Shown here piece by piece: positions 5,781-37,021 of a DNA stretch of 41,598 nucleotides. The translations under genes were made by a program, and so were the position numbers. The stretch is taken from the NCBI GenBank assembly GCA_003159495.1, contig PLPI01000030.1, positions 11,523 to 53,120 on the forward strand, written 5' to 3'. Positions within the stretch are counted from its first letter, which is position 1. Each line of letters begins with the position of its first letter. This stretch comes from a candidate division FCPU426 bacterium (GTDB taxonomy: Bacteria > Oederibacteriota > PGYV01 > Palsa-1178). The notes under the pieces were generated by a model, which had not been told where the DNA came from, did not search any database, and saw nothing but the letters and a program-made list of their open reading frames with translations.

Positions 5781-5837
5781 TTACAGCCTCTTGTACTCAT
5801 CGTACCATCCGCCTTTTGCAGTTTTATGCAGAATCAC
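5781..5837 (-). pseudogene. possible orphan C-terminal coding remnant
   Basis: Just past the glycosidase stop, in another minus-strand frame, an open stretch ends in a TAA at 5781. It reads VILHKTAKGGWYDEYKRL and could start at GTG 5837. The composition and the GGWYDEYKRL ending look like a genuine protein C-terminus rather than noise. There is no matching upstream coding sequence, because the frame runs back into the glycosidase gene. It may be the tail of a lost gene or a chance open frame. Confidence 0.25.
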
Positions 5838-15099: not shown

Positions 15100-16047
15100 C
15101 TATTTGCCGTTTTTGGTTTTAAGTACGTTCAGAGCCTCTTTCGCCAGATTTTTCCCTGTAAGGCCGTATTTTTCGAACAGCGCCTCGGGCGTGCCGGACT
15201 CGGCAAAGGTGTCATTGATGCCCACCCTTTTAAGTATAACCGGATATTTCTCCGAAATTACCTCGGCAACCGCTGACCCCAGCCCGCCTATTATGGAATG
15301 CTCCTCAACAGTCACTATTTTACCCGTCTTTTTTGCCGAAGCTATTATCATTTTTTCATCGATGGGCTTTATCACCGGCATATGGATTACTTCGGCTGAA
15401 ATATTTTTTGACCTGAGTATCTCCGCGGCTTCAAGGGCCTGAAATATCATTATACCCGTCGATATAATGGTAATATCCGTTCCGGGCCTTATGATGATGC
15501 CTTTTCCGAACGTGAATTTATAATCCGGCCCGAATATAACATCTGTGGTCATTCTGGTGAGCCTGACATACACGGGAGAATCGTAATATTCCGCCAGGTA
15601 TTCGATTATTTTTTCCGTCTCCACGGAATCCGCGGGCGCCACAACTTTCATGTTTGGAATGGAGCGCATTATGGAAATATCCTCGCATGCCTGGTGCGTG
15701 GGGCCGTCCTCTCCCACTGAAATCCCGGCGTGTGTCACAACTATTTTTACGGGAAGGTTCGGGTAGGCAACGGAGTTTCTTATCTGCTCCCACGGCCTCC
15801 CCGAGCCGAACATCGCGAAGGTCGAGGCGAACGGATTCATGCCCGCCGCGGCAAAACCTGCGGCCGTGCCTATCATGTCCTGTTCGGCTATGCCCATGTC
15901 AAAAAAACGGTCCGGAAAGGCTTTGCCGAATTTTCCGGTCTGTGTGGATTTTGCCAGGTCGGCGTCAAGCACCACTATGTTCTTATTTTTTGCCCCTAGT
16001 TTTACAAGGGTCTCGCCGTAAACTCCGCGCATCGATGTTTTTGCCAT
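15100..16047 (-). CDS. transketolase C-terminal subunit (pyrimidine-binding plus C-terminal domains)
   Basis: This 315-residue protein is the C-terminal half of a split transketolase, which moves two-carbon ketol units between sugar phosphates in the pentose phosphate pathway. It has the Pyr domain with VVLDADLAKST, DRFFDMGIAEQDM (the glutamate that activates thiamine diphosphate) and THAGISVGEDGPTHQ, followed by a transketolase C-terminal domain from about residue 190. The ATG at 16047 comes one base after the stop of the partner subunit and is preceded by GGTGAG, so it is my chosen start. A GTG at 16056 in the same frame would add three residues. It forms the enzyme with the N-terminal transketolase half encoded by the preceding fusion gene. 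Confidence 0.93.
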   Translation of the reverse strand: MAKTSMRGVYGETLVKLGAKNKNIVVLDADLAKSTQTGKFGKAFPDRFFDMGIAEQDMIGTAAGFAAAGMNPFASTFAMFGSGRPWEQIRNSVAYPNLPVKIVVTHAGISVGEDGPTHQACEDISIMRSIPNMKVVAPADSVETEKIIEYLAEYYDSPVYVRLTRMTTDVIFGPDYKFTFGKGIIIRPGTDITIISTGIMIFQALEAAEILRSKNISAEVIHMPVIKPIDEKMIIASAKKTGKIVTVEEHSIIGGLGSAVAEVISEKYPVILKRVGINDTFAESGTPEALFEKYGLTGKNLAKEALNVLKTKNGK

Positions 16048-16048
16048 G

Positions 16049-17966: not shown

Positions 17967-20474
17967 CTATATCTTTTCCACGAACCTGCCGAGGAATTTT
18001 TTATTTTTTTCAAGCAGGGCCTTTGCCGATTGTTTGGTCTTTGCCTCGACGTATATCTGAAAAACGGGCCTGTCGTTGTCGGGTATAATAAGCACCCTGG
18101 AGCCGCCGTCGTTGAACTGGATGCCCTCGATGTCGCCTTCTGTATTGTTGTCCTTTAAGGCGGCCAGTTCCATCATAACATGGCCCCGTTTTTCCCACGG
18201 CACTACGACAGAATCCACAATTTTTATATAAGATGGTATTTTTTCCACAAGTGTCGAGAGGGGTTTGCCGTAAACCGCCAGAAATTCAAGGAATTTCACG
18301 GTGGACATCATGGCGTCAAAAGCGGGCTGGAAAGAGGAGAAAATAAACCCGCCCTTTTCTTCCATTACGAAATCGGCTTTTTTCGTGTTGGCCGCGGTCA
18401 TCATCGAGCGGTAGCTTGTCCCCACCCTTATGACCTTTCCGCCGTCCGCCTCTATAACCCTGTCAACCGCCGTGGCCACATTAACAGGCACAGCTATAGT
18501 GGCGCCTTTGTTCGACATTAAAAACAGCTTTGCCATGACGAGCAGGGCGTTGTCGTCAATAAGAACACAGCCGGAATCGTCGACTATGAATATTTTCTGC
18601 GCGCCCGCGTCAATCATGATACCCGCGTCGGCCTTTAATGTTTTTACCATCTCGCCGATTTTTTCGAGGGAGGCCTCGAATTTTTCGTTGGACCTTGTGA
18701 GTTTTTTCTCGTCGTTATAGGCGTTAAGGGCTATGACCTCGCAGTTCAGTTCGCCGAGTATGGACGGGAAAATGTTAAGGGCGTTGGAATAAGAATAATC
18801 TATTATAATCCTGAACCTGCGTTTTTTTATCTTCTCAAAATCGACGGCCTTCATGAAGCCTTCATTATAATATTCCAGCGCTCGCGGCGGGTATGATATC
18901 ACCCCGACCGAATCATTCTCCGCCCTGCGGTATTCCTCCCTGAAAAAATAGTTCTCAATGGATTTTTCCTGGTTCAGGCTGATATCGAGGCCGTCGGAAT
19001 CAAAAAACTTTATATCAACCATTTTTTCGTCATAAGGCGATTTCCTAATATGAAGGCCGCCGGCAACCTTTAGTGTCTTTGCCACGAATTTCGTCACGGG
19101 AAGCGGCATTATGCGGAAATCGTAAATATTGACCCCGGTGGAAAGTATGCCGGACATTATCGCGCGCTCTATCATAAAAGAGGCCCTGTGATAGTCGCGC
19201 GATATAAGAACGTGGCTACCTTTTTTCAGCGTGGAGCCGTAGGCCGCGCCTATCCTGGCGCCGATCTCCGGCGTAAGCTCGATATTTGCCATTGATGTAA
19301 TGCCGTAAATGTCAAAAAGCCTGTTTGACCAGCGCTCGCCCTGTATCATGGAGGAAGATACCACGGAAAAATCATCAACCTTTTTATTCGGCCAGAGTTT
19401 TACTTCCGGTTTGATAACGGCTTCCTTGCCAATAAAACAATTGTCGGAAATCACCGCCCCGACGCCTATATAAGCCTTGTAGCGTATTTTATTGTTATTG
19501 CCTATTACAGCCTCTTTTATGTCGACCTCTTTTTCAATCGTGTTATTGTTCCATATTATAGAGCGCACTATTTTCGCGCCGCTGTCTATGTAAACGTTGT
19601 CGCCTATTACGGAGTTTGCAATCTCCGCCCCATCCTCAATGGTGACATTGTTTCCCATAACGACGGAATCCTTTAATTTTGCCTTGGGGCTTATTTTTAC
19701 GTCCTTTCCCACCCAGACATCGCGACCTATCTTGCCTTTTCTCTCTCCCTTTATATCGCAGTCTATCTCGCCGTTCAAAATATCCTCGTGCACCTGGCGG
19801 TATTCCGCAAGCGTGCCTATATCCTTCCAGTAACCCTCGCCGGTAAATCCATAAAGCCTTTCCCCCTTTGCCAGCAGGTCGGGAAAGAGCTGTTTGGAGA
19901 AATCATAATCAACGCCGGATGGTATAAATTTAAAAACCTCCGGGGAAAAAACGTATATTCCGGTATTTATTGTGTCGGAAAAAACCTCACCCCAGGATGG
20001 TTTTTCCAGGAGTTTTTTAACGCGGCCGTCCTTTTCGGTTATGACAATGCCGTAACGCAGCGGCTCCGTCGTCTTTGTAAGGACTATCGTGCCGATAGCG
20101 TTGTTCTTTTTGTGAAAATCAATTGCCTCAGCGAGGTTGAAATTGGTGAGCACATCGCCGGAGACTATGATAAAAGAATCATCTTTCATACTTTCTTTTG
20201 CCAGCGTGATGCACCCGGCGGTGCCCAGGTCGCTGTCCGAGGTTAAATAGCTGATTTTAACCCCGAAATCCGAGCCGTCCCTGAAATACCCGGAAATGAC
20301 GTCAGGCTGGAAATAAAGCATCATGGTGATATCGGTGATGCCGTATTTTTTTATGAGATTGATGATGTGTTCGAGCATGGGCGTGTTCATTACCGGAGCC
20401 ATTGGTTTAGGGATATTTGCGGTCAAAGGCCTCAACCGGGTTCCGAAACCGCCTGCCAGAATAATAGCTTTCAT
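17967..20474 (-). CDS. sugar-1-phosphate nucleotidyltransferase fused to a degenerate phosphomannomutase-like domain
   Basis: The N-terminal 235 residues of this 835-residue protein are a nucleotidyltransferase of the mannose-1-phosphate guanylyl/glucose-1-phosphate thymidylyltransferase type: AGGFGTRLRPLT, PKPM, VSGDVLTN and an EKPSWGE segment. Hexapeptide repeats form a left-handed beta-helix from about 249 to 370. Residues 395-835 have the layout of an alpha-D-phosphohexomutase, but the usual TASHNP phosphoserine loop is replaced by HIRKSP (475-480) and the DGDGDR metal loop by DAGAQK (622-627). Mutase activity is therefore doubtful. The ATG at 20474 is used because GGAGGG lies four bases before it; a TTG at 20477 is also in frame. 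The gene is flanked by its own promoter and terminator. It probably makes a nucleotide sugar for surface glycans. Confidence 0.85.
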   Translation of the reverse strand: MKAIILAGGFGTRLRPLTANIPKPMAPVMNTPMLEHIINLIKKYGITDITMMLYFQPDVISGYFRDGSDFGVKISYLTSDSDLGTAGCITLAKESMKDDSFIIVSGDVLTNFNLAEAIDFHKKNNAIGTIVLTKTTEPLRYGIVITEKDGRVKKLLEKPSWGEVFSDTINTGIYVFSPEVFKFIPSGVDYDFSKQLFPDLLAKGERLYGFTGEGYWKDIGTLAEYRQVHEDILNGEIDCDIKGERKGKIGRDVWVGKDVKISPKAKLKDSVVMGNNVTIEDGAEIANSVIGDNVYIDSGAKIVRSIIWNNNTIEKEVDIKEAVIGNNNKIRYKAYIGVGAVISDNCFIGKEAVIKPEVKLWPNKKVDDFSVVSSSMIQGERWSNRLFDIYGITSMANIELTPEIGARIGAAYGSTLKKGSHVLISRDYHRASFMIERAIMSGILSTGVNIYDFRIMPLPVTKFVAKTLKVAGGLHIRKSPYDEKMVDIKFFDSDGLDISLNQEKSIENYFFREEYRRAENDSVGVISYPPRALEYYNEGFMKAVDFEKIKKRRFRIIIDYSYSNALNIFPSILGELNCEVIALNAYNDEKKLTRSNEKFEASLEKIGEMVKTLKADAGIMIDAGAQKIFIVDDSGCVLIDDNALLVMAKLFLMSNKGATIAVPVNVATAVDRVIEADGGKVIRVGTSYRSMMTAANTKKADFVMEEKGGFIFSSFQPAFDAMMSTVKFLEFLAVYGKPLSTLVEKIPSYIKIVDSVVVPWEKRGHVMMELAALKDNNTEGDIEGIQFNDGGSRVLIIPDNDRPVFQIYVEAKTKQSAKALLEKNKKFLGRFVEKI

Positions 20475-20542
20475 CAAACCCTCCGAATATGGTTCATGGC
20501 GCGCGGTGAATGGGCCATGATGGAATCAAAACCTTTAAATTG

Positions 20543-21739: not shown

Positions 21740-24700
21740 CTATCTTATCAGCGCCATCTTCATTATAACCCTTTTATTCACAGTTTTCACCTCACAAATA
21801 TATATTCCTTCCGCGGCTCTTTCGCCGCTGTTATTCACTCCCGGCCATGATACATAGTTTATCCCGGCTTTAACGGCCTCAATGTTTTTCTTCCATACCA
21901 GCGAGCCGTTCATGTCATAAATCCTGACGCATACATCCTCTGCCATGGCAAGGGAGAAGCGTATCGTCGTCTCCCCGCTGAACGGATTCGGGTAATTGTA
22001 TGTATTGCTCTCGTTTAAATCCTCATACTGGCTTTTTGCCGTTTTCAGCCGCGTAACTGAAAGCGCTCCCATACCGCCCGGCGCATTTCCCCATATCAGC
22101 GCGCCGTCAAGGTAAACAGTCATATTGTTCCACACCGAATAATCCTGGAAAACCGTAAAACTCCAGTCATTGCCCTGGTCATAAACACTCCAGTCCGTTT
22201 TATTAAACCTCGCCTGAACCTCCGCGTATTCACCCGGATTTATGCTTCCCGCTCCCGCCGCAAAACCTATCTTTAAATACCTGTCCTGCGAACCGAAACT
22301 GCCGTCAATTATCTGACTGCTTGTAAAGTTTTCTATATGTTCCCCGGAAACCATCTTAAAGGCCGCGTCGACACATGACTGTTCGGACTGGTTTGTCCCT
22401 TCAAACTTATACCAGTATCTTATCTCAATTGCGCTTAAATCCACCGCGGAAGAACCGTTGTTGTAAATCCTGAACCACGGGTGGGGGGAATTTGTGCTTA
22501 TATCATTTATGGCGTCTTTGAACTCCAGCGTTATGCCGTATGTATCCGGCGTGATTGTCGGCGTAATAGTTGCGGTTGATGTCATCGTTATTGTATTAGT
22601 CGGGGTAAAAGTCGCTGTTTTTGTCAATGTTTTTGTCGCGGACGGCGTTATTGTGCGGGTGCGTGTGCGTGTCGCCGTATAACTCGGAGTTAATGTGGCG
22701 GTTGTTGTGAGAGTCGCGCTGTTAGCTGCCGTTCCCGTGGCTGTGGATGTTGTTGTTACAGTTATGGTTGCCGTGGAAGTTTCAGCGGCGGTATTTGAAG
22801 GTGTGATATCCGGCGTTAATGTTTCCGGGGTTGCCGTGCCCGTCGCCGTAGTCTCTGCCTGCTGTGTCGCGGTGCCGTTTATAGTCATGCTTTCTATCGG
22901 CGTCACGGTGCCCGTCATTACAGCCGTTAAAGCACTGGTTTGCGTGACGCATGGCGTCATAGTGGCTGACTGCGTATTTGTCAATGTCGCTGTGATGGCG
23001 GGTGTATTCGTAAAACTTGGCGTAATTGTTGCCGTATAAGAAGGCGTTGCAGCCGCGCTTGATACCGCCGTAGGCGACGTTATAGGCCCGGCAGTGCCCG
23101 GTTCAATTCCCCATATCAATACGCCGTCATAATAGACAGTCACCTGGTTCCACACCTGAAAATTCCATGTGTTTAAATAACTCCAGTCATTGCCCTGATT
23201 GTACGCGCTCCAGTCGTTCTTGTTGAACCTGCCGTCAACCAGCAGTGAATCCCCGGGCTGTAAATACCCCGCTCCGGCGCCGAACGAAACCGACAGATAC
23301 CTGTTTTGCCCGCTGCCAAAACCTCCGGTTACGATGGACGCCTCTGAAAACTGTGTCAGGTTTGTTCCCGCGTTCATCCTGCCCGCGTAATCGATTACCG
23401 CCGTTTCAGCCTGTCTGGTTCCCTCATATTCATACCAGTATCTTATCTCGATTTTACTTGCATCCAGGGTAAGCGCGCTTATATTGTCCAGCTTAAAGTC
23501 CGGTTTTGGTGAATTCGTGTTGTTATTGTTATCCCCGGATTTATATTCCAGTTGTACGGGTATTATCACATAAAGCGCAAGCGACCCGGCGTTTTCCGTA
23601 TTTGAAACCATGTCAACGGAATAATAACCCAGGTTGTAAATTCCAGGTGTAAGCGTAACAGGCGACGCGTATTCGCCGAAACTTCCGCCGTTCATGCTGT
23701 AATAGGTTTTGTATATTCCCGAAGGTATTGATCCGTTATCCACCGCATTGAGTGAAAAAATACAGCTTTCCGCCGTTACTGTCAGCGCGCCCGCGGAAAC
23801 CGTCACGGTATTGCCGCCGTAAACAATCGAAGCCGTGGTGGACGGCGCCCTGTCGTCAACCACAAAACGCTCCAGGTTGCTGCCATAACCTAAAAACGCC
23901 CTGTTGTTTCCAACATTGTCAACGCCGGTTGTCTCGATTGTATGCATTCCCTCCGCAAGGTATGTCACGCCAAAAGGGGCCGCGTTAATCGTGCCTGACA
24001 TAAAAGTCTGCGGCGCGGATGCGTCTATTCTGTAATCTATCTCCTTTACGCCGGAGCCGCCGCCGTCAAAAATATCATTCGCGGTGATGCTAAGTTTTGA
24101 ATAATTTCCGTTTATATAAACCAGCGAACCGGCCTGCGCCGTTGTTGTCAGGACCTTCGCGCTTCCGGTGTCCGCCGCCGTTACCAGTGACAGGTCATAT
24201 TTAATTTCATCATCCGTCGTTTCGGTTGTATTTAGCAGGCTGTCAACCATGGCAGGCGTAAAAATATCAGACGCGGTCGTTGTCAACTCCGCGACTATCG
24301 CCGCCCTGTCCCAGCTTGTTATGTCAGCCGGGAAAGTTACGCCAACGGCTGAAACCGTCCCTGTATCCCGCCAGTATGGCGCTATAATATCCAGCACCGT
24401 ATCGGGTGGATTTGTGTCCATAAACAATCCGCCGGATTTTACCGCCTCAGTGTTCCCGTTTTTGTCCGTTGACCTGAAATATACGGCCGCGGGTGTGTTT
24501 GAATACGGGCACACAAACGGCGTTGTATAATTATTGAAATACCCGGGGTCGGGATTGTTGAAATTATATCCGGTGTTATATACTCCGGAACTCTGCTCGC
24601 CGGCGGAAGACGCGTCCGACGCATTTAATTCTATCAGCGACCCGCTGTTAAAATATATGGCGCCCGATGATGCCGTATAACTGTTTCCAATTATATCAAG

Positions 24701-27700
24701 AACCGTCACCGGCGCGGCCGAATCCGGCATTATTGTCAGATACGACCCCGCGCCTATATTGCCGCTGCGGTCGACTCCGGCCACATAATATGTATGGCTC
24801 GTATCCGAACCAATGTCAAATCCCGTGCCTGAGAGCATGTCGGCATATGCGTTTATTGTTACCGGGCCGGCCGTTATCAGGACGTTATCCCTGTAGATAT
24901 TGTATCCCGCCAGATCGCTTGCCGTGGGTGTCAGCGAATCCCAGGATAACATGTTTCCTATATAATTCAAAGCGGCCGACGGTATGTTTTGCCTGTAACC
25001 CTTCAGGTTTTTCAGCTGATCCGGCGGCCGGGTATCTATTGTAAACGTATTATGCCCTGTCCCTGTATTTCCGGCAAGGTCATATCCCAGCACTTCCACT
25101 GTTATGCTTGAATAGACGTAAGTTGCCTTAACCTGCATTACTGCGTTAAAGACATCTCCGCCGCCGGTGACAGGCGCCATTACTGATTCCCAGCCGCTTC
25201 CATTGCCCGTCAAAGCGGAAATCTTTACCTGCGGAAGTCCGGCTATAGGCTCGCTTGCATTAATTATCATATTATAATTCCCTGTTCCAAGGGGCTGGTA
25301 ATTTGTAAGGCTGACGCCGAACTGCGGCCTTTTTGTATCAACGGTTATGGTTTTTGAAGCATAAACTTCCTGGCATGTATTATCACTGCACAGCGTAACC
25401 CCTGCCACGGCCTCAAGGAGCCCCTCATAATTGTCAAGTTCCGGCGGCCCGACAACATACTGGTATGTGCTCTCGCCTGTCAGGATGTTTGTCCCTGTCA
25501 CCACAATATTGCTTATTTTCGCAGGGTCAACGGTCAGGGTAACGCCCGATGGATATTTATAGAGGTTAATCGACGGCAGTTCGCCCTCCAGATTGGATTT
25601 TGCCGAAATTAAAAGAGTGTCCCCGAGTTTCGCAATGTCCCTGTCGGTGGTTATGGACACAGGAGTCATGCTTGTATTGATATAAAAATATCCCTGTCCG
25701 CCTCCGGTGTTGCCGAGCATGTCAACACCGGAAAAATCAACTTCGGCCTGGCCGGATACTCCGGCAGGCACGTTTGCCGCAACGCTGAATTCAGCCATGT
25801 ATTCGCTTACCGGCGCAAACATGGTCCACGGCGTATTTCCAATGGAATCCGTTACAACAACCGTATTTGACGATGCGTCAATAAGCGACGCGCTTACCTG
25901 AGCGCCGGTCATTTCATTGCCGGTTATCTGCACCCCTGCAAGGGTATATGTATTCGCGCCTATTACTATTGTCTTCCCGTTCCACCAGCTCACAGGCGGG
26001 AATGCAAGCGTCTGCCCCGGCGCCGTATTTATAAGCGTGAGGCCTGTTGTACAGTTGGTGGAAGTCGAAAGTGTTCCCGAATCATGATTGGAAGGATTCA
26101 TCGGGTCAATACACGACCAGTTGGTTGTTCCATTTATAATACTGTTGACGCTTATTTCATTGGATGTATTTCCCCTCTGGTCAACAAGGGTAATCCAAAA
26201 TTCATTAGACCTTGACTGATTTGACTTACTTATATCACTTGAATACGTCCCCGCCCTGTTTATATAATATGTTTTCGCAGGCAAGTTTGTTCCCGGGTAA
26301 CTGAAAACCACCGCCGTTCCAGCAAGCATTGTATTTGATTCCCCGTCACACGGCATGCCGGCGTCACCCACGTTACCGAGGATTAACTGGTACGGGTCAT
26401 AATCACTGTTAGTACATATTGTCGTAACGGATGTCGTACCGCTCATGTAGGGTTTTATCTGCCGGGTAAATGTCAGCGGCACTGTCCTGCCGTTTTTGTA
26501 TGTCACATTCAAATCAGGCAGGGTAACACTGCCTGTAAGATTTGTACCGAGTGTTTTGGTCGATTTGATATAAATATCCACAACGCTCTGCATGCCCGCC
26601 GGATCCGGCGATGCGCTGAACTGAAACGACGGCGGGTCCATGTTTGGTATCAGCTGTACCGTGGAAAAAGAGGTCAGTTCCGTGGTAATTACATGGTTTT
26701 CTTTGTCAACCAGAGACGAGATAAGCATTAGTTCTTCCTGCGTGCCTCCCGGGGGTATGTCAAGCTTATACAGCGACAGTGTGGACTCGTCATATCCGCC
26801 GAGCTGTTTCGGATCGTATGTAATGGTCAAAACCGCGGGCTTCGGAATATTGCCTAGAGAATCCATGGCAAAATCATCGGTTCTTAAATGGTCGCCCTCC
26901 GACTCGCCCGGATTTACAGCCAGAAATGAATATATCAGGGAAGCCGGTATCAAACTGCTCTGTAAAATCGGAAGTTCATTCCTTTTCAGCGGCGTTATTG
27001 TTATGTATTTATCCTGCCTTAACGCTCCGGCCGGGAAATACAAGAACGCCTGTTCGTAGGCGTCTGTTGCCGTTCCGCCGTCCTTTGCGGTTATCTGGTG
27101 GCCTATGTTTATGACCTTTTTTGACTGGTATGCCTCAAAATCACCGCTGTTATTTACAACCACCGACAACATTATGTCATAAGCGCCTATCTTATCCTTT
27201 ACCGGCAGGTACCCGAGCACGCCCTGAGCCGTCATCGTACTGCGCTTGAACTCATGATACACGTCATTTTCAGCAGAGTCGTCCATTTTATACGAAAGCG
27301 CGTAATATACGAGATTCGCCACATTTACCGTGCCGCTGATTTTAACATACGTTATGCTGTCATATGGGGTTGCCGAAGGCTCCCTTAATTTCAATGTGAC
27401 CTTGTCGATATTGTAATCATCGTATGTAAGCCCAATTCCAAAATCAGAATCCGCCGTTGAAGTGGCAGAACCAAAGCTTATTTTGTACTCGTTTGTAAGT
27501 GATGTCTCGGAAACGCCTCCCGCAAGCACTATATCATTGTCATATCCGGCGCCGTCAGGATACATCGGCCCGTTTATCGTCCACCCCGATGTATGTGGCA
27601 CAGAATCCGGCCCGGGGACCGCGCTGCCGGTTGCCGTCACCTGAGCGGCCTCGCTCTGGTTCGGGAAAGGGTTGATTCCGCCGCCGTATGTATTGTTTAA

Positions 27701-30700
27701 ACTCTGGAATATATTGACTTTCTGCCCCGTCTGCGTCCCGCCCTGGTTGAAAACAACCACATTATCCCTTACCGCAACGGGTGTTGGAATGGACCAGTTC
27801 TCCGTTAAATTCTGTGCGGTTACAGTTACCCCGCAGGTGAAAACATCCTGATTCCAGCTGTTATTTGAAATATCAACAGACAGCAGAGTGTTTCCTCCGT
27901 TATCCGCAACCGCGTAATAATCAGAATATGTCACGCCTGAAACTGTAAATATATATGCTATCGATCCATTATTAACACTATTACCTATAATTTTATTTTT
28001 AGCAGCTACTACCTGATCGTCAAGGTTTATGGTCTGGCCGGGTAATATATTTGTTTTGTTGTATTGTATGTCATCCGCATGAACGCTTATTGTATTGCTA
28101 AAATAATATATCGCATTTGTGTTAAATGAATTTGTTATTCCCACGGTAAAATCCTTAATAATTTCAGTAACCGCCATTGTTGCCTTTAAACCGGCGCTTA
28201 TATTAAAATTGGCGCTTTTGCCGTAGCTCAAATTTATTGTTCCCGACTGCGTCCCCTCATTTTTTTCATTTGCCGTGCCCGTGCATGTGGAACAAACAGT
28301 ATCGGTTACGGAATAATAATGTTCGCCTTCAGGTATCAGTCCTCCCCCTATTCCCGTTGCAGCGGAAGTTATAGCCGCGCAACTTACATTTATTAATGGC
28401 TGTCCAGTGGCTGCGTTGTTTGGATAAAACGGATTTGAAATAACTCCGTGCTGCGGTTCATCGTTCCAGTCTGATTTATTTTGAGCCGTAAAAGTGATTG
28501 TAAAAAAATCGGAGTTCTCGCGATGAGCATAAATTATATCTTTGCCCTGTATAGCGCCCGCTACTTTCGAATAACCGGAATCGTTATTTATATCATAATA
28601 TGCCATTTTTAATGCTGTCGTTTCTGATTGGATACAAACCTCACCTTCCTTCGCATTAACATTTCCGGTTATGGTATCCCCACGGTTTACAATGAAATTT
28701 CCTTCATCACTTCCAGAACCTGACTTATAGCTATTACCATTCCATGTTATTTCCCAATCTCCATTACCACATCCACTAGTGCTTGCGGTCCAGGCTAATG
28801 TCTGATTGTAAGGTACATAAAACTTAAAATTATCCGATGTATTACATCCCCAACAACTCGATGTTTTATTTAATGAAGGTTCTATTGAATGTTGATCCAC
28901 CCAGTTCTCCGTCGCGTAGCCCGTCACCGTGTATGTCACGGCCATCGGCTTGTCGTACATCCCCGCCCCTGTTGCCGTGAAATCAAAGAACGGCTTCGGC
29001 TCGCCGTACGCGTCCATGGTCACTCCCGGCATATCCGTTACCTGCGACGCATCGCAGGATGTTATATATACAATATTTTCCGACACAGGATTGCCGTTTT
29101 TCACGGCAGTCATACGTATGGGTACGCCTCCGATATTTATTACCTTTCCAAGATAATCCTGCCCGTCCCAGTATATCCTGTGGTCTCCGGCCTTTAAGTC
29201 ATCATCCGTTAATGTAAAATACATATAACTCGCCGGCGGCCCTCCCTGTGAAGCGCCCCACCCGGAATACAGCGTAACCGAATCGGCATCCTGATTTAAA
29301 GTGTAATCAATAGACAACTTCTCCCCGATACCCCTTACATACGTCTGCGGCGAGACCGCGAGCGTTGAGTTAAATTTAATATTTATCCCGTCAACTTCCG
29401 AAATTTCGCTGTTGCCCGCGGAATCTATGACAAAAAGTTTTATGTTCAGGTTGTTGCCTTTTATGCCGTTTATCGGGATATTCGCCAGCCAGTCGTTTGA
29501 CACGCTGTCCATGCTCCTGTTTACAAGCGTCCAGTCACCGCCGTCGGCCTGTGAATATACCTCATAATACTGCATTTTTACCGGCAATGTCTGCCCGTCG
29601 CTGTCAGTGACCCCGGCGCTTCCCACGACCGTAATGTCGCCGGTTACATCCGCCTTGGCAGCAGGCGATGTGATAGCCGCTTTTATATCGTCAGTCGAGG
29701 AATATTTCCTGATCTTTATATCTTTTTCAAACGTGTCCGCTGTAACGCTGACGGTAAAATATGAATCCGGCTGGGCCGACGCGTCCCATACTGCCTGGTA
29801 TTTAAGCCCCTGTATGTTCGTCCCGCTTATTTGAGCCAGCGTCACACCCGCGCTGTCTATAACCGTGAATGTCACCGGGCTGTAATCCGTGGTGTAGACA
29901 TCGGCTGTGAGCGTCACAACCGAAGCAAAAGGGTTCGGATTCCCCTGCAAATTATTTATTCCCGGAGGCGTCTGGACGTGGATGTTGTTTATGGTTGCCC
30001 TGTCGAGCACCCCGGTATTTCCTGAATCATCCGTGCCAAGGATAAAAAGACGCAAATCATAATCCCCGTTTACCATTGATGCCACATCAAGATCCGCGAG
30101 CGTCCCGTCGTTTATCTGGACATTATACGCCGTTGTTGTTACCGCCCCGGCGGTCGATAACAGCGGCAGGTTTATGTACGTATAGCCTTCGTCCGGGTCG
30201 TTCGAACCCGTATCCGATATATAATTTGACGGCCTGTATCCTATCCTGTAACCCTTGAACGCCTCGGCGCCGGTCGCGGTTCCTAAAACCGCCGCTATCC
30301 CGTCCGGCCGGTTCGCCGCGCTTAACGACATCCCGTCAGCCGCGGCTATCCCGCCTATCTGCGTTATCTGCGGCACTATCCTTCCTTTCACAACAAGCGC
30401 GCTTCCGGTCGTGCTGTTGCCGAACGGGTCCATGAGCGTTATCGCCGCGCGGTAAACCCCGTCCTCCACTATACCCTGTGTTCCGTCCCGCCTTGTCCCT
30501 TTGCCGTCCCATACTATGCCGTTTAGCGGCGCGGCCAGTATATTCCTGTAGTTCACGGTTTCGTCAAAATTATAAAAGTAATATTTCGTATTGTTATATT
30601 CGTCAATATCGCCGTATTTACCGGAGTATTTAAGGGTGATGGGCTGTTTGTTTTCAATGCCGTCGTACAAATCCCTCACAACCCTCGTGGAATTGTCGGG

Positions 30701-33700
30701 CATGATCTTGATGTCCGCAAAAACATATTTTGATGCCGCTGTCATGGGGAATATATAAAACGCCGTGCAGGTCCTGCCCTTAGCCTCCTCCTCGGGGTCA
30801 AAAATAAACGGCGAGGCAACCGTCGGATACCGCAAAATAGGGGCGCATGAAGCCGGCAGGACAAAATATTTTCCCTTTGCCCCGGGCTGTACTGTATAAA
30901 TTGTATATGTTCCCAGCGGATGCTCCGTTTTCAGCAGTTCCATTGCGGTCTTTGTCGCCCCTGTTGAATCCACCCCGTCAGTTTCCCTGTATATCCCCAG
31001 GTTCTGCGCTATTATATTTTCAGCCTTTGCCTTTTGATTGTCATAATCCGCGGCGCCGGCAAGGTCAAAATCGGCGTCAAAATTTTGTATGTAAAGGTCG
31101 TCGTCCGTGTATTTCACGGTTATTGTAAGCCCCGTTGAAGACGCGGCCAGCAGCCCGGAGTCCAGCGGCGGATAAATGCCGAATTTTGACGTCATCATGG
31201 CGTACTGGTCCGATTCAAATCCGTTTACCGGCCCGCTGTTTTCCGCGTATATATTGACATATGCGGTCTGCGTCAGAGCGCCCGCCGGGACATAAACCTG
31301 GAATTTCATGTACGGGTCCGTCACTATTGTTCCCGCCGTGTTTGAAACATCAATGGGCGTGCCGATGGTAAAATGTGCCCTGTCAACCTCGGCCGTACTG
31401 CTGACATAATAGTATCCCTCGTTATCGTCGTCCACGGTCGTCCTTATGGTATATTCCCCGTACAGCCGTTTGGACCATACATCCCATGAAGTCATCACAT
31501 TAAAAAGCGGTCCTGCTTCCTTATCGTTTGATATCACAATGCTGTTTGCCGTAAAGGAATTATCCCCCGCGTCGCTATTGAGCCATCCCGGCGCGTATTC
31601 GAGGCGCCATTGCCTGAAATTCATGGCGTCGGCCGCGCCCATAACCGTTACAAATGATTTTCCCGTATAAATATTCTTCAGCCTCATCTGGAACCTGCCG
31701 TCGGACGGAACCGTTGATATTATATTTCCGTTCACATCCACTATTTCAAGGTCCGGGTCCGCCGTATTGTCGGGATAAGAGACGCTGATTGCATCATTGT
31801 GCATTGAAGCGTCCACCGTAAAAATATCGCTGAGCGGCCTTTTGCCCGGATCCGCGTTAAGGTAATTTATTATGCCGCCGCCCTGCTTTAATACCTGCGA
31901 ACCTATCCCGGCAATGCCGTTTGACGACACTGTCCATATAAAGGAAGAGACCGGTATTGCCCTTGAGCCTTCCTGCGGAAATGATGTCCCGTCAAGGTAT
32001 GCGGTAAACTGCATGTCAACCCTGTGTCCGCCCGCGTTAATGGTCCATATCTTTACCGTATTCGCGCCGGCGTGCGGCAGGGGTATGTCAAGCGCCCAGT
32101 CAGCCTTGCCCTCTTTCCCGTCCGCAGTGGTCACAAGGGTTGTGTCGATTTTCAGCACGGTTGTGACCACTGGCCCGCTGTCCGCCTGCGCGTACACCTG
32201 CAAAAACTGCGGGAAATAATCCGCACCCCATCCTTCCGTATGCAGGACCGAGTTATTTGTCGTGACGCCGCATATTGAGCCGTTATAACTTGTCAGCGGC
32301 GATTTCGCGTTCCCGCTATAAGGATAAAATACCCCCACTTCACCGGGCTGGTCCACATTGTCGAGTATCTCACCCGGATTTAACTGCTGTCCCTTGCCGA
32401 AACTCAAAGAACCCATTACTTCATTTATCAAATCGCCGATAAAAGGCAGAAAATCAACATTTATGGGCAACGGAATATTAAAATTTGGGAAATCGCCTAT
32501 TTTTAATTCTTTGAATATTGCTGTCCCTTTTTCCGCAATCGCGCTTTTTAATCCCTGTATGGCGGGATTATTACTGCCGAGCTGATTTTCAACGGTGCTG
32601 AGCAGATTGCCGTTTGAAGTATTAAAAATGCTGACAATAATGGGGCCAATATTTGCTATGCCGCTTGTTATTGGTTCCGGTATAACGTGCAAAAGCTGTA
32701 ATACCTGACCGAGAGTTGACATCATCGATTCATTCACAGTAAGCGGGGAACTGCCGGAGCCGCCGCTGGCTTTCAGGGTCAAATTCTTTATCTTTGAAAG
32801 GTTGGAAGTTATGGCTGATATATCACGGTCCGCAAAATTTGTAAGCCACTTCCCACCTGATACAAGGTCATTTTTTGTCCCATCATAATTGTCTATATAA
32901 GTGGCAACCTTTGTTGCCACATCCATTACGTCATCCCACGAGATATTAATATTGTTCAGATCCGGCAGGTCCGAGTCGTTGGCACTGCACCCCATTATAG
33001 AACTTGCCAATGAACCGGAATTTATCAAATTCTTTAAACTGCTTACCGAGCTTTTTACACCGCCATATCCCGGGAAATTGCTCCCGCCCGGAAGCCTGTC
33101 AGCAATAGAATCAAGCTGTAAGTCGCTGATTCCCTTATCCAGTATCGCGTCTAATCCCCTGAAAGCGTAAGCTTTTATTGTCCCTTCGGCCCACGTCTTT
33201 ACATACCCCACTGCTCCCTGCAAAAGATACTGCCCGAATCCCGGATTGGATATCATCTGAATGCCGCCTAAAAGAGCCATTCCCACGCTTACGTCTTTTG
33301 CGACCGTTTGAAAATACATGACATCGTTAATGGCGTTCTGGTCAATACCGGTGCCGCTGCTTAAAAACGCGCCGGCTATGGCAACGCTTGTAAGGTCGTC
33401 CGCGATATGGGCATTGGTTGTATTTCCGAGGCCGGTTGTGGTGTTTGAGAGAAAATCAAGAACTCCATTGCCGCCCATGCCGTCGGCGGCAATCTTCGTA
33501 TTCCCGTTGCCGGTATCGCCGGGTTGTTTTATCGGCATCAATTCGTTCATAGCGCCGCTTATTCCGCTGTCAATGGCGCCGCAAAGGTTTCCCTTAGTCT
33601 GCCAGTCGCCCAAAGAGAGATTTTTTGCATTCATATTAATAAAAAGCAGTTGCGGCGGGTTTATTCCCCTGAAACCAAGAGATAACTTAAACATGCCGGC

Positions 33701-36700
33701 AAGGTATTTCCAGGTATCCGGTCCTTGCAGTTTATCCGGGAACCAGGCGATTTTCCACCCGCTCGTATCAAGTCCCCACTTGCACCCTTTCAAATCCGGC
33801 CGAGGCAGGTTTATATTTATTCCCGGTATTTTTACAGAGGGTATTTTAAACAGGTTTCCCAGCAACATACCCTTAAGCTGCGCGTCAAGGCAGGCAGGTA
33901 TTGTTATGTTTAATTTATTTTTAAGAAAATTCGAAACGGTCATATTGGATGTGATGCCGCCCGCCACCACATCGGCGCTCTGGAGGTTCACGCTCTTTAA
34001 CTGCTCGGTTTCTTCGGATGTAAGGCATTTAAAATCCAAATCCGGCAACAAATCTTTCAGCGCCCCGAGCAGGTCAAAACGGCTGAAATCGGGGATTAAG
34101 GATTTTAACAGGGTCGCCCAGTCAATGCCGAGGTCAATATCCGGCAGGGATAAAGAAACCGATGCCCCGTTTGTTACGTTAAATGCATTGGAATAGGATG
34201 TTTTTGTTGACGACGAATCATAATCGGCGGCATTAATAAATGACAATTCATGATATTCATCAGAATGTAATGTGCTTGTTATATTTGACCGCGCCGGGTC
34301 AACTATATAAAAATATCCGCTTCCCGGCGTGGCATTAATAAAAGTCTTTGTTATATCATTGTTATAGAAATTGTCGTTGTAATATTTGCTCTGCGCCGAG
34401 ACGCACACCTTCAGTGTGCCCGACTCTCCTGCTTTTAATACAAGCGCTGTATCAGCCTTGGTTAAATCCGTTTTGAATACCTGTGCGTATCCCTTCGTTA
34501 TATCCGGATCGGTAACCGGTTCAAGAATAAGAGGCAGGCTCTCAACTAGGGCGGTTGTGCTTACATTTTTAAGCATGACCGTATTTGCGCTTATTGCTTC
34601 CGAAAAATATAAGTACATAGTGGGATTATCCGCTATTTCAACCCCCTTCGGTATTACATTTGCGGTGCTTGAGAGCCTCACCGGTATATCCTGTCCCGCT
34701 TGAAATACCGCTTTATCCCATGCATAGTCATATGCTGTTTGTGTAGTTCCATCATTTGAAGCCGCTGTATTGCCGGCAGAATCAGCAGTGCCAACGGTTT
34801 GTATAACCTTCAACCGTTCAAGATATACCGGCTGATAATGAAATGAAAGGTTCAATATGTCCGATGCCTGCTTGGGGCTGTTTGTATCCGACGCCATTTT
34901 CATTGCTCCCCAGGCGCTCATTCCGATTTTCGTGCAATTTATCATATTATCAGCCTTTGTCACACTTGCTATATCCTCATCATAAGCCGTCTCGTGAAGA
35001 TACGGTATATATTCACCAATTTCTTTTTCGCTCTTATTTGTAACATGTTTTAATCCCGTCGCCTTGTCTATAAAAGGAAATATCAAAGTTTTAAGATTTG
35101 GCACAGTTGCGTTATCAACATCTCGTATATAAGTATTATTTGCATTGGTATTATCCAGCCAATATGCCTTTATGTAATAATTAATAGTTCCGTCGCTCGC
35201 CGTCGTCGTTACGGCTATTTCGGAAAAGGCCGTATCTATCGCGGTTTTGATACTTCCGGTGCATTTCGAATAATCTTTATATGGAATAAAATATTTTTGC
35301 CCGTCGGAATAGCCGTTTACAAGTACATCGTAGTTATTACCGGCGTTTATATTTTGTTCATGAAGCAAAAGAGTATATGCGGCTATTCCTATCGCCTTAT
35401 AACCCTCCTTAAATTGGGTCCCGGAGAAGTCCGCTCCGCATGTTGCTCCATACATTATTCCCTTGATATAATCCGCAACATTTACGTTTGTGGCGGCAGC
35501 CGTAGCCGGATAGTTAATGTTTGATGTGTCCGTCGGCACGGGTGTGGGCGTCCCGCCATCATTGGATATAAAAACGTCATTATCGCCGTTGGCTCCTTTA
35601 AAAATGACCGAACCTTTCGGTGCAATTACAAATTTATTATTTTTGTCAACCCCTCCCGTCTCTGTATCAGTTCCAGATTCACCGCTTAACACACTTTCGT
35701 AGCTGTTCCAGGCGCCGTTTGAAGTCCTGACTGCCGCTGTTGCCGGATTCCTGTCAAGTTTATCCTGCATCAGGCTGGTTGCATCAACCTCAATCTGATT
35801 TTCTCCAAATTCGCCTGCGTCATCGTTTATATCAAGCTGGCCGACCCACTTTGTGTATACATATCCCACATCCACTCCAATTTGATTGACCCAGCCGTTG
35901 CGAATTGCCAAAGAATTGTTAAAAAACCCGTCATTATATAAACCCTCTTCAAGAAATTTTACAGGCTGTTCCGCCCCTGTTTTCATATTTTTTACCGTTA
36001 CTGTTATATCCTGCCAATCAGCTTCGTATGCCCCGGCATATGCCGCCATAGCCTTTGAAAACTCAAGCACAATGTATATTTTTCCGGGCTCCGCGCAGTT
36101 ATTCAAACTCACGTTTTTTGTCCTGGTTGCGCTGTCAACATCACTCCACCCGGCGGCAAATTTTTTTATATGCGCAGGCGCTCCGTTTATCATATTATAC
36201 TGGTATATTGTAACTTTTTGGAGATATGGCGGGCTAAAACGACGGGGCTGGTATCCTGTACCTCCATCACTTCGCCGTATGTCGTCATCGCTTATCCATG
36301 TAAAAGTGCAATCCTTTACTCGCGGGTCTGCATTTATAGTTCCAGCTATTCTCACCGAATTTGGTGAGGCGTCAATAACATTTGCTACGTTATTGTCTTG
36401 ACTTGTTTTATTTATAAACAATCCAACATGCCCGTTTGTACCATCATTTTTTATAAATATATCACCTTCAGCAAGCTGGTCCCATGTTATGGCATCAGTA
36501 AACTGATTTGCTATTAAATCGACCGTCCCGGGATGCCATAACGCGTATGGATAATTTTGTCTCGGCAATATTGGAATTCCAACGCAGTTTTCCACAAATC
36601 CCGAACAGTCTATTCCGGTATAGTCGTGCCACTTAATACTAAATTCAATTGTATTGTCAATATTACCCGCTTTTACCCCGGCGGCCAATTTATTATTAAA

Positions 36701-37021
36701 AATATCTTCTGTTTCTCTTAAAGACCAAGCATACACTTCGCCTGTGTATTGGCCAGTTGCAAAAATCACGGAGCCATCAGGATTCTTTTTTATTGGTTCG
36801 CCAGCAGGAAAAAACGGATATTGAAGGTCATTGTCTGCCTCTATACCATCTGCATTTGTCGTCCGAGCATTTGCCTCGGTGCATATCCATGAGTAATCTC
36901 TATAATTTACAGCGTTATTTATTATTGTATTTCCACAATCGCAAAGCCCGCGCGTAGAATTTCCAATAAAAAATACAAAAAATAATAAGAAAGATAGATA
37001 CCCTTTTTTATTAACCAACAC
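21740..37021 (-). CDS. giant secreted multidomain protein (5,093 aa): NlpC/P60-like, SpoIID-like, Ig/FlgD/FN3 array, two CBM3, FlgD/T9SS-like tail
   Basis: One uninterrupted frame encodes 5,093 residues. A signal peptide (1-27) is followed by an NlpC/P60-like peptidase (about 90-240) with GIDCSG (C139), GHVGLF (H198) and D217 as a plausible triad. A SpoIID/LytB-like domain follows (about 510-715), with FKEGYKAIGIAAYT and GMSAWGAMKMA near its ends. Residues 957-1540 are hydrophobic, helix-like and unlike anything else in it. Residues 1560-4480 are mainly Ig, FlgD and FN3-like modules (one FN3 at about 3998-4100). Two CBM3 domains (4490-4641 and 4831-4983), both ending in a YYDG/YLDG-type strand and LIWG, flank a Thr-rich linker. 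The C-terminus (5008-5093) is FlgD/T9SS-like (YPNPFSGETTIRF). The GTG start follows an AGGGG site and lies 14 bases after the preceding gene. It probably ties the cell surface to cellulose-like material. Domain limits in the middle are approximate. Confidence 0.85.
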   Translation of the reverse strand: MLVNKKGYLSFLLFFVFFIGNSTRGLCDCGNTIINNAVNYRDYSWICTEANARTTNADGIEADNDLQYPFFPAGEPIKKNPDGSVIFATGQYTGEVYAWSLRETEDIFNNKLAAGVKAGNIDNTIEFSIKWHDYTGIDCSGFVENCVGIPILPRQNYPYALWHPGTVDLIANQFTDAITWDQLAEGDIFIKNDGTNGHVGLFINKTSQDNNVANVIDASPNSVRIAGTINADPRVKDCTFTWISDDDIRRSDGGTGYQPRRFSPPYLQKVTIYQYNMINGAPAHIKKFAAGWSDVDSATRTKNVSLNNCAEPGKIYIVLEFSKAMAAYAGAYEADWQDITVTVKNMKTGAEQPVKFLEEGLYNDGFFNNSLAIRNGWVNQIGVDVGYVYTKWVGQLDINDDAGEFGENQIEVDATSLMQDKLDRNPATAAVRTSNGAWNSYESVLSGESGTDTETGGVDKNNKFVIAPKGSVIFKGANGDNDVFISNDGGTPTPVPTDTSNINYPATAAATNVNVADYIKGIMYGATCGADFSGTQFKEGYKAIGIAAYTLLLHEQNINAGNNYDVLVNGYSDGQKYFIPYKDYSKCTGSIKTAIDTAFSEIAVTTTASDGTINYYIKAYWLDNTNANNTYIRDVDNATVPNLKTLIFPFIDKATGLKHVTNKSEKEIGEYIPYLHETAYDEDIASVTKADNMINCTKIGMSAWGAMKMASDTNSPKQASDILNLSFHYQPVYLERLKVIQTVGTADSAGNTAASNDGTTQTAYDYAWDKAVFQAGQDIPVRLSSTANVIPKGVEIADNPTMYLYFSEAISANTVMLKNVSTTALVESLPLILEPVTDPDITKGYAQVFKTDLTKADTALVLKAGESGTLKVCVSAQSKYYNDNFYNNDITKTFINATPGSGYFYIVDPARSNITSTLHSDEYHELSFINAADYDSSSTKTSYSNAFNVTNGASVSLSLPDIDLGIDWATLLKSLIPDFSRFDLLGALKDLLPDLDFKCLTSEETEQLKSVNLQSADVVAGGITSNMTVSNFLKNKLNITIPACLDAQLKGMLLGNLFKIPSVKIPGININLPRPDLKGCKWGLDTSGWKIAWFPDKLQGPDTWKYLAGMFKLSLGFRGINPPQLLFINMNAKNLSLGDWQTKGNLCGAIDSGISGAMNELMPIKQPGDTGNGNTKIAADGMGGNGVLDFLSNTTTGLGNTTNAHIADDLTSVAIAGAFLSSGTGIDQNAINDVMYFQTVAKDVSVGMALLGGIQMISNPGFGQYLLQGAVGYVKTWAEGTIKAYAFRGLDAILDKGISDLQLDSIADRLPGGSNFPGYGGVKSSVSSLKNLINSGSLASSIMGCSANDSDLPDLNNINISWDDVMDVATKVATYIDNYDGTKNDLVSGGKWLTNFADRDISAITSNLSKIKNLTLKASGGSGSSPLTVNESMMSTLGQVLQLLHVIPEPITSGIANIGPIIVSIFNTSNGNLLSTVENQLGSNNPAIQGLKSAIAEKGTAIFKELKIGDFPNFNIPLPINVDFLPFIGDLINEVMGSLSFGKGQQLNPGEILDNVDQPGEVGVFYPYSGNAKSPLTSYNGSICGVTTNNSVLHTEGWGADYFPQFLQVYAQADSGPVVTTVLKIDTTLVTTADGKEGKADWALDIPLPHAGANTVKIWTINAGGHRVDMQFTAYLDGTSFPQEGSRAIPVSSFIWTVSSNGIAGIGSQVLKQGGGIINYLNADPGKRPLSDIFTVDASMHNDAISVSYPDNTADPDLEIVDVNGNIISTVPSDGRFQMRLKNIYTGKSFVTVMGAADAMNFRQWRLEYAPGWLNSDAGDNSFTANSIVISNDKEAGPLFNVMTSWDVWSKRLYGEYTIRTTVDDDNEGYYYVSSTAEVDRAHFTIGTPIDVSNTAGTIVTDPYMKFQVYVPAGALTQTAYVNIYAENSGPVNGFESDQYAMMTSKFGIYPPLDSGLLAASSTGLTITVKYTDDDLYIQNFDADFDLAGAADYDNQKAKAENIIAQNLGIYRETDGVDSTGATKTAMELLKTEHPLGTYTIYTVQPGAKGKYFVLPASCAPILRYPTVASPFIFDPEEEAKGRTCTAFYIFPMTAASKYVFADIKIMPDNSTRVVRDLYDGIENKQPITLKYSGKYGDIDEYNNTKYYFYNFDETVNYRNILAAPLNGIVWDGKGTRRDGTQGIVEDGVYRAAITLMDPFGNSTTGSALVVKGRIVPQITQIGGIAAADGMSLSAANRPDGIAAVLGTATGAEAFKGYRIGYRPSNYISDTGSNDPDEGYTYINLPLLSTAGAVTTTAYNVQINDGTLADLDVASMVNGDYDLRLFILGTDDSGNTGVLDRATINNIHVQTPPGINNLQGNPNPFASVVTLTADVYTTDYSPVTFTVIDSAGVTLAQISGTNIQGLKYQAVWDASAQPDSYFTVSVTADTFEKDIKIRKYSSTDDIKAAITSPAAKADVTGDITVVGSAGVTDSDGQTLPVKMQYYEVYSQADGGDWTLVNRSMDSVSNDWLANIPINGIKGNNLNIKLFVIDSAGNSEISEVDGINIKFNSTLAVSPQTYVRGIGEKLSIDYTLNQDADSVTLYSGWGASQGGPPASYMYFTLTDDDLKAGDHRIYWDGQDYLGKVINIGGVPIRMTAVKNGNPVSENIVYITSCDASQVTDMPGVTMDAYGEPKPFFDFTATGAGMYDKPMAVTYTVTGYATENWVDQHSIEPSLNKTSSCWGCNTSDNFKFYVPYNQTLAWTASTSGCGNGDWEITWNGNSYKSGSGSDEGNFIVNRGDTITGNVNAKEGEVCIQSETTALKMAYYDINNDSGYSKVAGAIQGKDIIYAHRENSDFFTITFTAQNKSDWNDEPQHGVISNPFYPNNAATGQPLINVSCAAITSAATGIGGGLIPEGEHYYSVTDTVCSTCTGTANEKNEGTQSGTINLSYGKSANFNISAGLKATMAVTEIIKDFTVGITNSFNTNAIYYFSNTISVHADDIQYNKTNILPGQTINLDDQVVAAKNKIIGNSVNNGSIAYIFTVSGVTYSDYYAVADNGGNTLLSVDISNNSWNQDVFTCGVTVTAQNLTENWSIPTPVAVRDNVVVFNQGGTQTGQKVNIFQSLNNTYGGGINPFPNQSEAAQVTATGSAVPGPDSVPHTSGWTINGPMYPDGAGYDNDIVLAGGVSETSLTNEYKISFGSATSTADSDFGIGLTYDDYNIDKVTLKLREPSATPYDSITYVKISGTVNVANLVYYALSYKMDDSAENDVYHEFKRSTMTAQGVLGYLPVKDKIGAYDIMLSVVVNNSGDFEAYQSKKVINIGHQITAKDGGTATDAYEQAFLYFPAGALRQDKYITITPLKRNELPILQSSLIPASLIYSFLAVNPGESEGDHLRTDDFAMDSLGNIPKPAVLTITYDPKQLGGYDESTLSLYKLDIPPGGTQEELMLISSLVDKENHVITTELTSFSTVQLIPNMDPPSFQFSASPDPAGMQSVVDIYIKSTKTLGTNLTGSVTLPDLNVTYKNGRTVPLTFTRQIKPYMSGTTSVTTICTNSDYDPYQLILGNVGDAGMPCDGESNTMLAGTAVVFSYPGTNLPAKTYYINRAGTYSSDISKSNQSRSNEFWITLVDQRGNTSNEISVNSIINGTTNWSCIDPMNPSNHDSGTLSTSTNCTTGLTLINTAPGQTLAFPPVSWWNGKTIVIGANTYTLAGVQITGNEMTGAQVSASLIDASSNTVVVTDSIGNTPWTMFAPVSEYMAEFSVAANVPAGVSGQAEVDFSGVDMLGNTGGGQGYFYINTSMTPVSITTDRDIAKLGDTLLISAKSNLEGELPSINLYKYPSGVTLTVDPAKISNIVVTGTNILTGESTYQYVVGPPELDNYEGLLEAVAGVTLCSDNTCQEVYASKTITVDTKRPQFGVSLTNYQPLGTGNYNMIINASEPIAGLPQVKISALTGNGSGWESVMAPVTGGGDVFNAVMQVKATYVYSSITVEVLGYDLAGNTGTGHNTFTIDTRPPDQLKNLKGYRQNIPSAALNYIGNMLSWDSLTPTASDLAGYNIYRDNVLITAGPVTINAYADMLSGTGFDIGSDTSHTYYVAGVDRSGNIGAGSYLTIMPDSAAPVTVLDIIGNSYTASSGAIYFNSGSLIELNASDASSAGEQSSGVYNTGYNFNNPDPGYFNNYTTPFVCPYSNTPAAVYFRSTDKNGNTEAVKSGGLFMDTNPPDTVLDIIAPYWRDTGTVSAVGVTFPADITSWDRAAIVAELTTTASDIFTPAMVDSLLNTTETTDDEIKYDLSLVTAADTGSAKVLTTTAQAGSLVYINGNYSKLSITANDIFDGGGSGVKEIDYRIDASAPQTFMSGTINAAPFGVTYLAEGMHTIETTGVDNVGNNRAFLGYGSNLERFVVDDRAPSTTASIVYGGNTVTVSAGALTVTAESCIFSLNAVDNGSIPSGIYKTYYSMNGGSFGEYASPVTLTPGIYNLGYYSVDMVSNTENAGSLALYVIIPVQLEYKSGDNNNNTNSPKPDFKLDNISALTLDASKIEIRYWYEYEGTRQAETAVIDYAGRMNAGTNLTQFSEASIVTGGFGSGQNRYLSVSFGAGAGYLQPGDSLLVDGRFNKNDWSAYNQGNDWSYLNTWNFQVWNQVTVYYDGVLIWGIEPGTAGPITSPTAVSSAAATPSYTATITPSFTNTPAITATLTNTQSATMTPCVTQTSALTAVMTGTVTPIESMTINGTATQQAETTATGTATPETLTPDITPSNTAAETSTATITVTTTSTATGTAANSATLTTTATLTPSYTATRTRTRTITPSATKTLTKTATFTPTNTITMTSTATITPTITPDTYGITLEFKDAINDISTNSPHPWFRIYNNGSSAVDLSAIEIRYWYKFEGTNQSEQSCVDAAFKMVSGEHIENFTSSQIIDGSFGSQDRYLKIGFAAGAGSINPGEYAEVQARFNKTDWSVYDQGNDWSFTVFQDYSVWNNMTVYLDGALIWGNAPGGMGALSVTRLKTAKSQYEDLNESNTYNYPNPFSGETTIRFSLAMAEDVCVRIYDMNGSLVWKKNIEAVKAGINYVSWPGVNNSGERAAEGIYICEVKTVNKRVIMKMALIR
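22555..23080 (-). repeat. degenerate Thr-rich linker repeats between the two CBM3 domains
   Basis: Residues about 4647-4822 of the giant protein are made almost only of Thr, Ala, Ser, Pro and Ile in short degenerate repeats such as TATITPS, TNTPAITATLTNT and TRTRTITPSATKT. The DNA shows matching purine/pyrimidine periodicity. It is a flexible, potentially O-glycosylated linker that would let the two cellulose-binding modules move independently. Confidence 0.85.
27794..27805 (+). repeat. direct repeat, left copy, bordering an AT-rich island
   Basis: CCAGTTCTCCGT occurs here and again at 28901-28912, exactly 1,107 bases (369 codons) apart and in the same codon phase. Both copies encode TENW on the minus strand. 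Between the copies the composition falls sharply, which suggests an in-frame insertion. Confidence 0.7.
28901..28912 (+). repeat. direct repeat, right copy, bordering an AT-rich island
   Basis: This is the second copy of CCAGTTCTCCGT, at the sharp boundary where GC-rich coding sequence resumes (for example 38 of 60 bases in 28921-28980). In protein order it encodes the first TENW, in TGYATENWVDQH; the other copy encodes the second, in NLTENWSIP. Confidence 0.7.

Follow-up and report, generated by a model that had tools for sequence, protein, structure and literature searches.

The window analysed here, a stretch of 41,598 nucleotides, is part of contig C62 in a 3.05-Mb Candidatus Goldiibacteriota MAG that is 97.8% complete. 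Its minus strand, on which all of the window's genes and features located below lie, carries a giant gene, P0001, whose frame runs without an internal stop over exactly positions 21740–37021 and encodes 5,093 residues, as the initial annotation had read it. The GTG start is found 14 bp past the stop of the preceding gene, and sequence inspection reveals a signal-peptide-like segment at the N-terminus of the product (aa 1–26; 36944–37021). P0001 belongs to a cassette with the order gene 1, gene 2, giant, which also occurs in relatives (genomes are denoted G and contigs C). The first cassette gene, gene 1 (P0003; 38304–39341), encodes a secreted protein of 345 residues without a known family, and homologues of it precede giants, or what remains of them, in G010 (C54, C62 and C136), G005 (C15) and, more remotely, G022. 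It overlaps by 4 bp with gene 2 (P0002; 37036–38307), whose 423-residue product carries a signal peptide, seen by inspection, and a weak NHL-propeller trace. Comparison of gene 2 with known immunity families gave no match, and a sub-threshold hit to the Pfam family 'Cytotoxic' (18.8 bits against a cut-off of 22) was rejected. The gene 2 product is a candidate for a periplasmic inhibitor of the giant's head, or for a partner to it; being NHL-like, it could also be a structural partner. Directly downstream of the giant, gene 4 (P0006; 20674–21708) encodes a 344-residue NHL-repeat lipoprotein-like protein, and a gene-4-like gene follows the CBM3-ended giant of G010 C92 (BLASTP segments, 27–32%); membership of gene 4 in the cassette is uncertain.

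Elsewhere in the window, at 17967–20477, an 836-residue protein joins nucleotidyltransferase, left-handed beta-helix and phosphomannomutase domains, and at 16049–17830 one gene encodes a PfkB sugar kinase joined to the N-terminal half of a transketolase, the C-terminal half being encoded separately by the gene that follows (15100–16056).

The initial annotation had proposed an NlpC/P60 peptidase at the N-terminus of P0001 from its DCSG and GHVG motifs. This head (aa ~60–262; 36236–36844), with Cys139 in DCSGF and His198 in GHVG, proved borderline in Pfam and firm at the profile level. Scanning P0001 in 600-residue pieces, we obtained a single-sequence Pfam score of 20.6 bits against a cut-off of 23, and a six-frame search gave 23.2 bits. 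When an alignment of five homologous heads was compared in hhalign with an NlpC/P60 alignment built from relatives' genomes, the match reached a probability of 96.7% (P = 3.7e-10), against at most 0.3% for four other profiles, the SpoIID-like one included. The Cys of DCSG and the following His are invariant across the five homologues, and the third position is the Asp of VIDAS in P0001 and D or E among the homologues. A PDB profile search with the NlpC alignment matched NlpC/P60 enzymes, but at E values of 0.03 or worse.

Further along, residues 505–745 (34787–35509) with a GMSAWGA motif at aa 700 form a domain that is likely SpoIID-like, albeit divergent, since the Pfam scan of P0001 gave no SpoIID match, yet profile-profile comparison produced a collinear hhalign signal (39% probability, P = 3e-4; controls 0.1–0.3%) and the family profile also picks up the canonical SpoIID of relative G013 (E = 1.5e-6). 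The earlier SpoIID call from GMSAWGAMKMA is thus upheld by the profile signal, but neither by a Pfam match nor by the catalytic residue: the Glu of the lytic transglycosylase is not conserved in the alignment of this domain, which therefore probably binds rather than cleaves. A PDB profile search with the SpoIID-like alignment yielded nothing beyond Piwi matches, which were set aside as chance. Structure prediction, suggested earlier as a check on the N-terminal segments, yielded models too poor to decide: AlphaFold returned a pLDDT of 60.7 for aa 25–760 without a decisive fold, and Foldseek on this model gave no match with an E value of 0.001 or below, most of what it returned being Ig-like folds. 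The best-modelled part was the beta-sandwich, Ig-like linker region that leads from the head to the SpoIID-like domain (aa ~262–480; 35582–36238), to which Foldseek matched Ig-like folds exclusively (E ≥ 7e-3).

The middle of P0001 is a mixture of Ig/FlgD-like traces, OmpL47-type beta domain repeats and a long stretch without a named family; the initial annotation had described an Ig/FlgD/FN3 array here. The OmpL47-type repeats (NCBIfam NF047446, 95.5 bits) occupy three stretches N-terminal of the first CBM3 module, at approximately 23557–25000. Closer to the head, residues 1058–2229 (30335–33850) constitute a conserved core with 42–52% identity to its closest homologues. The first part of the core contains a GxGxG elbow-like motif, ADGMGG, at aa 1179 (33470–33487), which aligns with GFSAGG of a G022 alpha/beta hydrolase; at the level of this motif, the start of the core is perhaps a decayed alpha/beta hydrolase within the stalk. 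AlphaFold modelling of aa 985–1700 (pLDDT 40.0) gave no decisive fold.

Towards the C-terminus, two CBM3 modules (copy 1, aa 4489–4645, 23087–23557; copy 2, aa 4830–4988, 22058–22534) flank a Thr/Ser/Pro-rich linker (aa 4646–4830; 22532–23086). Both copies exceed the Pfam PF00942 cut-off and match cellulosomal or cellulase CBM3 modules in the PDB by phmmer (E = 5.6e-31 and 2.2e-29), in agreement with the CBM3 pair initially described. The C-terminal domain that starts at YPNPF (aa 5010–5093; 21743–21994) was likewise correctly recognised and is a type-A T9SS domain, scoring 37.5 bits with TIGR04183 against a cut-off of 23, 40.4 bits with FlgD_ig and 32.3 bits with Por_Secre_tail (Pfam, NCBIfam). 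Giants ending in CBM3 are also found with the C-terminal domain, in G004, and without it, in G010 C92 and G013. The combined tail recurs on other ORFs, for example on a 2,801-residue ORF of G010 at 49% identity, and one protein of the window's genome unites glycoside hydrolase family 30, malectin, polysaccharide deacetylase and CBM3 domains. From its reuse on other ORFs and its presence across giants, CBM3 plus the C-terminal domain would seem to serve this group generally as a tail for docking to cellulose and for export.

Use of T9SS by P0001 is likely, judged from its C-terminal domain and the gene content of the genome, which holds 35 C-terminal-domain matches and 33 PorV-family matches, many of the latter above cut-off. 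Two SprA-model matches (75.7 and 74.8 bits) fall below the cut-off of 200, with E values of ~1e-21. They are located at the end of C21 (L140) and the start of C51 (L141), which may read as a single gene split by a contig break. A Pfam search of the genome for SprA_N, which had no positive control, gave no match, and a search for a PorU-type C25 sortase gave none either, with control genomes also silent. A PorV-family gene lies within 2.5 kb of 12 of the 35 C-terminal-domain proteins, around six times the ~2 expected by chance (G000 contigs, e.g. C45, C18, C139, C109, C135, C98 and C81), possibly as a dedicated shuttle for each cargo. Within the window, a 1,024-residue secreted protein (5834–8908) also combines an F5/8 type C domain with a T9SS-type C-terminal domain; its centre has the look of a glycoside hydrolase by eye and matches no Pfam glycoside hydrolase family.

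The core was detected in 7 of the 45 phylum genomes searched, five of them with strong matches (the window's own included) and two with remote ones, and was absent from the remaining 38. A single-sequence search of the genome contigs retrieved nothing, but an alignment-based search did find the relatives; a scan of viral contigs found no relative. Residues 406–4206 of P0001 align with residues 80–3924 of a 7,010-residue G013 protein at 31.6% identity, and the G010 giant is 43% identical over about 1,950 residues. By these alignments, P0001 belongs to a family that is confined to the phylum and whose members are conserved over almost their whole length. The search for homologues with the same domain order that had been proposed earlier was successful, uncovering a phylum-wide family that includes the G013 protein (~32% over about 4,100 residues).

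The relatives differ in their heads, some of which score below Pfam cut-offs and are assigned on motifs, in a sample of about ten cassettes from MAGs, several of them cut by contig ends. NlpC/P60 heads are present in the window, G007 C170, G010 C54, G010 C92 and G018. Those of G010 C136 and G007 C252 are of the M23 type, at 25.8 and 24.4 bits against a cut-off of 28.7, and keep the zinc-ligand motifs HxxxD and HxH in their sequences. The G022 giants, which belong to another, related family, have as heads an alpha/beta hydrolase that looks intact (GFSAGG) and, at a contig end, a partial subtilase (S8) (L050, L051). In G013, the head is a canonical SpoIID in an upstream frame, joined to the giant only across a frame change. 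The two frames (L022, 2153–3154 and 3064 onward) switch near an A-run, and the change may be a sequencing error, a pseudogene or a frameshift. The NlpC-headed giant of G010 C92 (L021, 3711–5081) is broken by a transposase-like ORF on the opposite strand.

Two cassettes of the same genome, G010 C54 with an NlpC head and G010 C136 with an M23 head, illustrate the exchange. Their gene 1 products are 85.9% and their cores 94.6% identical in amino acid sequence, whereas their mature gene 2 products cannot be aligned and their heads are no more similar than shuffled sequence. DNA identity resumes at the SpoIID-like domain (57.5% amino acid identity) and reaches 89–92% in the core and the stalk beyond it. 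In the congener G005, the flanking genes and gene 1 of the orthologous locus are collinear, with 81–86% DNA identity as far as the gene 1 end, past which the M23 module is replaced by a gene 2 of the NlpC type and a remnant of an NlpC head. Gene 2 is homologous in all five NlpC-headed cassettes and in two orphan loci (22–45%), while the two M23-headed cassettes share with it at most its N-terminal part. Next to the swap, the SpoIID-like domain of the M23-headed G010 giant is 58% identical to its NlpC-headed counterpart in G010 and 37% to that of M23-headed G007, its relatedness in G010 going with the genome and not with the head type. Judged from these comparisons, head and gene 2 are exchanged jointly and the type of gene 2 tracks that of the head, so that a conserved body is combined with an exchangeable enzymatic module and a neighbouring gene that is exchanged along with it. 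The swap is seen in relatives, the window's genome having a single cassette. In the orphan loci, G005 C15 (where the 5' end of gene 1 is missing as well) and G010 C62, the giant is gone except for a head remnant of ~85 residues and gene 2 is intact, a situation like that of orphan immunity genes. The initial annotation, although right in its domain calls (with SpoIID as a likely, divergent case), had missed the cassette, the swapping of heads and the family that shares this domain order across the phylum.

An enzyme module that is exchanged with its neighbour, and a neighbour that is retained alone, form the pattern of polymorphic toxin and immunity loci (PMC3482391). We therefore favour, as quite possible if a little short of probable, an exported, cellulose-binding stalk with an interchangeable wall-hydrolase head that is co-exchanged with a candidate periplasmic inhibitor gene. 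What we infer for this system from sequence comprises its enzymatic activity, binding to cellulose, display at the surface, secretion route, inhibition by gene 2, target and antagonism. The Goldiibacteriota bacterium would export P0001 by Sec as a T9SS-type cargo, and the two CBM3 modules of P0001 would most likely hold the stalk on crystalline cellulose, and the cell as well if the C-terminal domain is anchored. The NlpC/P60 head would most likely cut peptidoglycan stems of neighbouring bacteria, and the SpoIID-like domain, without its catalytic Glu, would most likely bind glycan. Recombination would swap the head and the secreted upstream gene 2 between conserved flanks, formed on one side by gene 1 and the gene 2 signal peptide and on the other by the SpoIID-like domain and the core. 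A peptidoglycan hydrolase on its way through the periplasm of its own cell has to be restrained there, and the gene 2 product carries a signal peptide, which is why we favour a cognate inhibitor; the gene 2 product would most likely restrain the head in the cell's own periplasm during transit and protect against sister cells.

Several points weigh against this polymorphic-toxin reading: the cassettes are few and several of them are cut by contig ends, gene 2 matches no known immunity family and its product could be a structural partner, subtilase and alpha/beta-hydrolase heads would also suit digestion, and the giants of G010 C92 and G013 stop at CBM3 without the C-terminal domain. The giant might instead gather bacteriolytic, proteolytic and lipolytic heads on cellulosic flocs to feed on dead or live biomass, its heads diversifying with diet and gene 2 acting as an accessory or in-transit inhibitor rather than as immunity. 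Besides the heads found in the related genome, the protein of the window's genome that joins CBM3 to glycoside hydrolase family 30, malectin and deacetylase domains is in keeping with such feeding, as is one relative that, going by its title, is apparently a sludge-digester MAG. Digestion predicts, however, neither the joint swap of head and neighbouring gene nor an intact gene 2 after loss of the giant, and we consider it unlikely, both as a role for the giant and as an account of gene 2.

Adhesion without important hydrolysis, with the peptidoglycan modules attached to the wall of the cell itself or of prey and CBM3 to cellulose, would suit the CBM3 pair and a SpoIID-like domain without its catalytic Glu. 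It is rather improbable given the invariant catalytic Cys and His of five NlpC homologues, the HxxxD and HxH motifs retained by M23 heads, the heads that are not wall modules and the export implied by the C-terminal domain. Of the functions initially suggested, a very large adhesin-hydrolase fits, but a tether between cellulose and the wall of the producing cell is less likely than the others: the type-A C-terminal domain and the SprA-like and PorV-family genes point to outer-membrane export, and subtilase or alpha/beta hydrolase heads would not tether peptidoglycan. The head could also open the cell's own peptidoglycan for assembly or passage of the giant and its partners, under regulation by gene 2. 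A 5,000-residue protein would presumably have to cross the wall, and the two genes ahead of the giant encode secreted proteins; since congeners differ in head type at an orthologous locus, and 38 of the 45 phylum genomes searched are without the core, we regard this own-envelope role as very unlikely.

If the polymorphic-toxin reading is correct, an uncultured phylum would gain a way of interacting with other bacteria that is concrete and can be tested, polymorphic effector logic would extend to N-terminal heads on T9SS cargo, and competition would be linked to attachment on cellulose. The pair of head and gene 2 is small enough for testing in laboratory strains. More doubtfully, these cassettes of Goldiibacteriota may constitute an interbacterial effector system of a new class, in which cellulose-docked giant T9SS fibres have an N-terminal hydrolase head that is exchanged with an upstream periplasmic inhibitor gene as one cassette, a polymorphic-toxin logic of reversed polarity.

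P0001 shows clear sequence homology to cellulosomal and cellulase CBM3 modules (CipA, 1NBC, 4JO5), but unlike in their context, no cohesin, dockerin or cellulase catalytic domain was detected in it. Giant ORF proteins of predatory Omnitrophota (PMC10066038) are likewise very large, secreted or at the surface, come from uncultured bacteria and are proposed to act on target cells; they belong to a different phylum, reach 39,678 residues and have transmembrane helices, and the parts of that report drawn on here do not describe a swappable N-terminal hydrolase with a CBM3 tail. TANFOR polymorphic toxins of Bacteroidetes (PMC7073777) resemble the present family as large Sec-exported proteins of T9SS-bearing lineages with variable domains and linked genes, but their toxins are C-terminal and their immunity genes downstream, whereas the C-terminus of P0001 consists of CBM3 and a sorting domain; no TANFOR domain was reported in our family scans. 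Polymorphic toxin systems such as CDI and Rhs (PMC3482391) differ in that the module of P0001 is N-terminal rather than C-terminal, its paired gene is upstream and without a known immunity domain, its tail contains CBM3 and its antagonism is a proposal from sequence. NlpC/P60 domains are among the toxins of these known systems (Tox-NLPC/P60; Zhang et al. 2012, PMC3482391), with which the cassettes share a long conserved delivery body, an exchangeable enzymatic module, a co-exchanged adjacent gene and loci that retain the small gene only.
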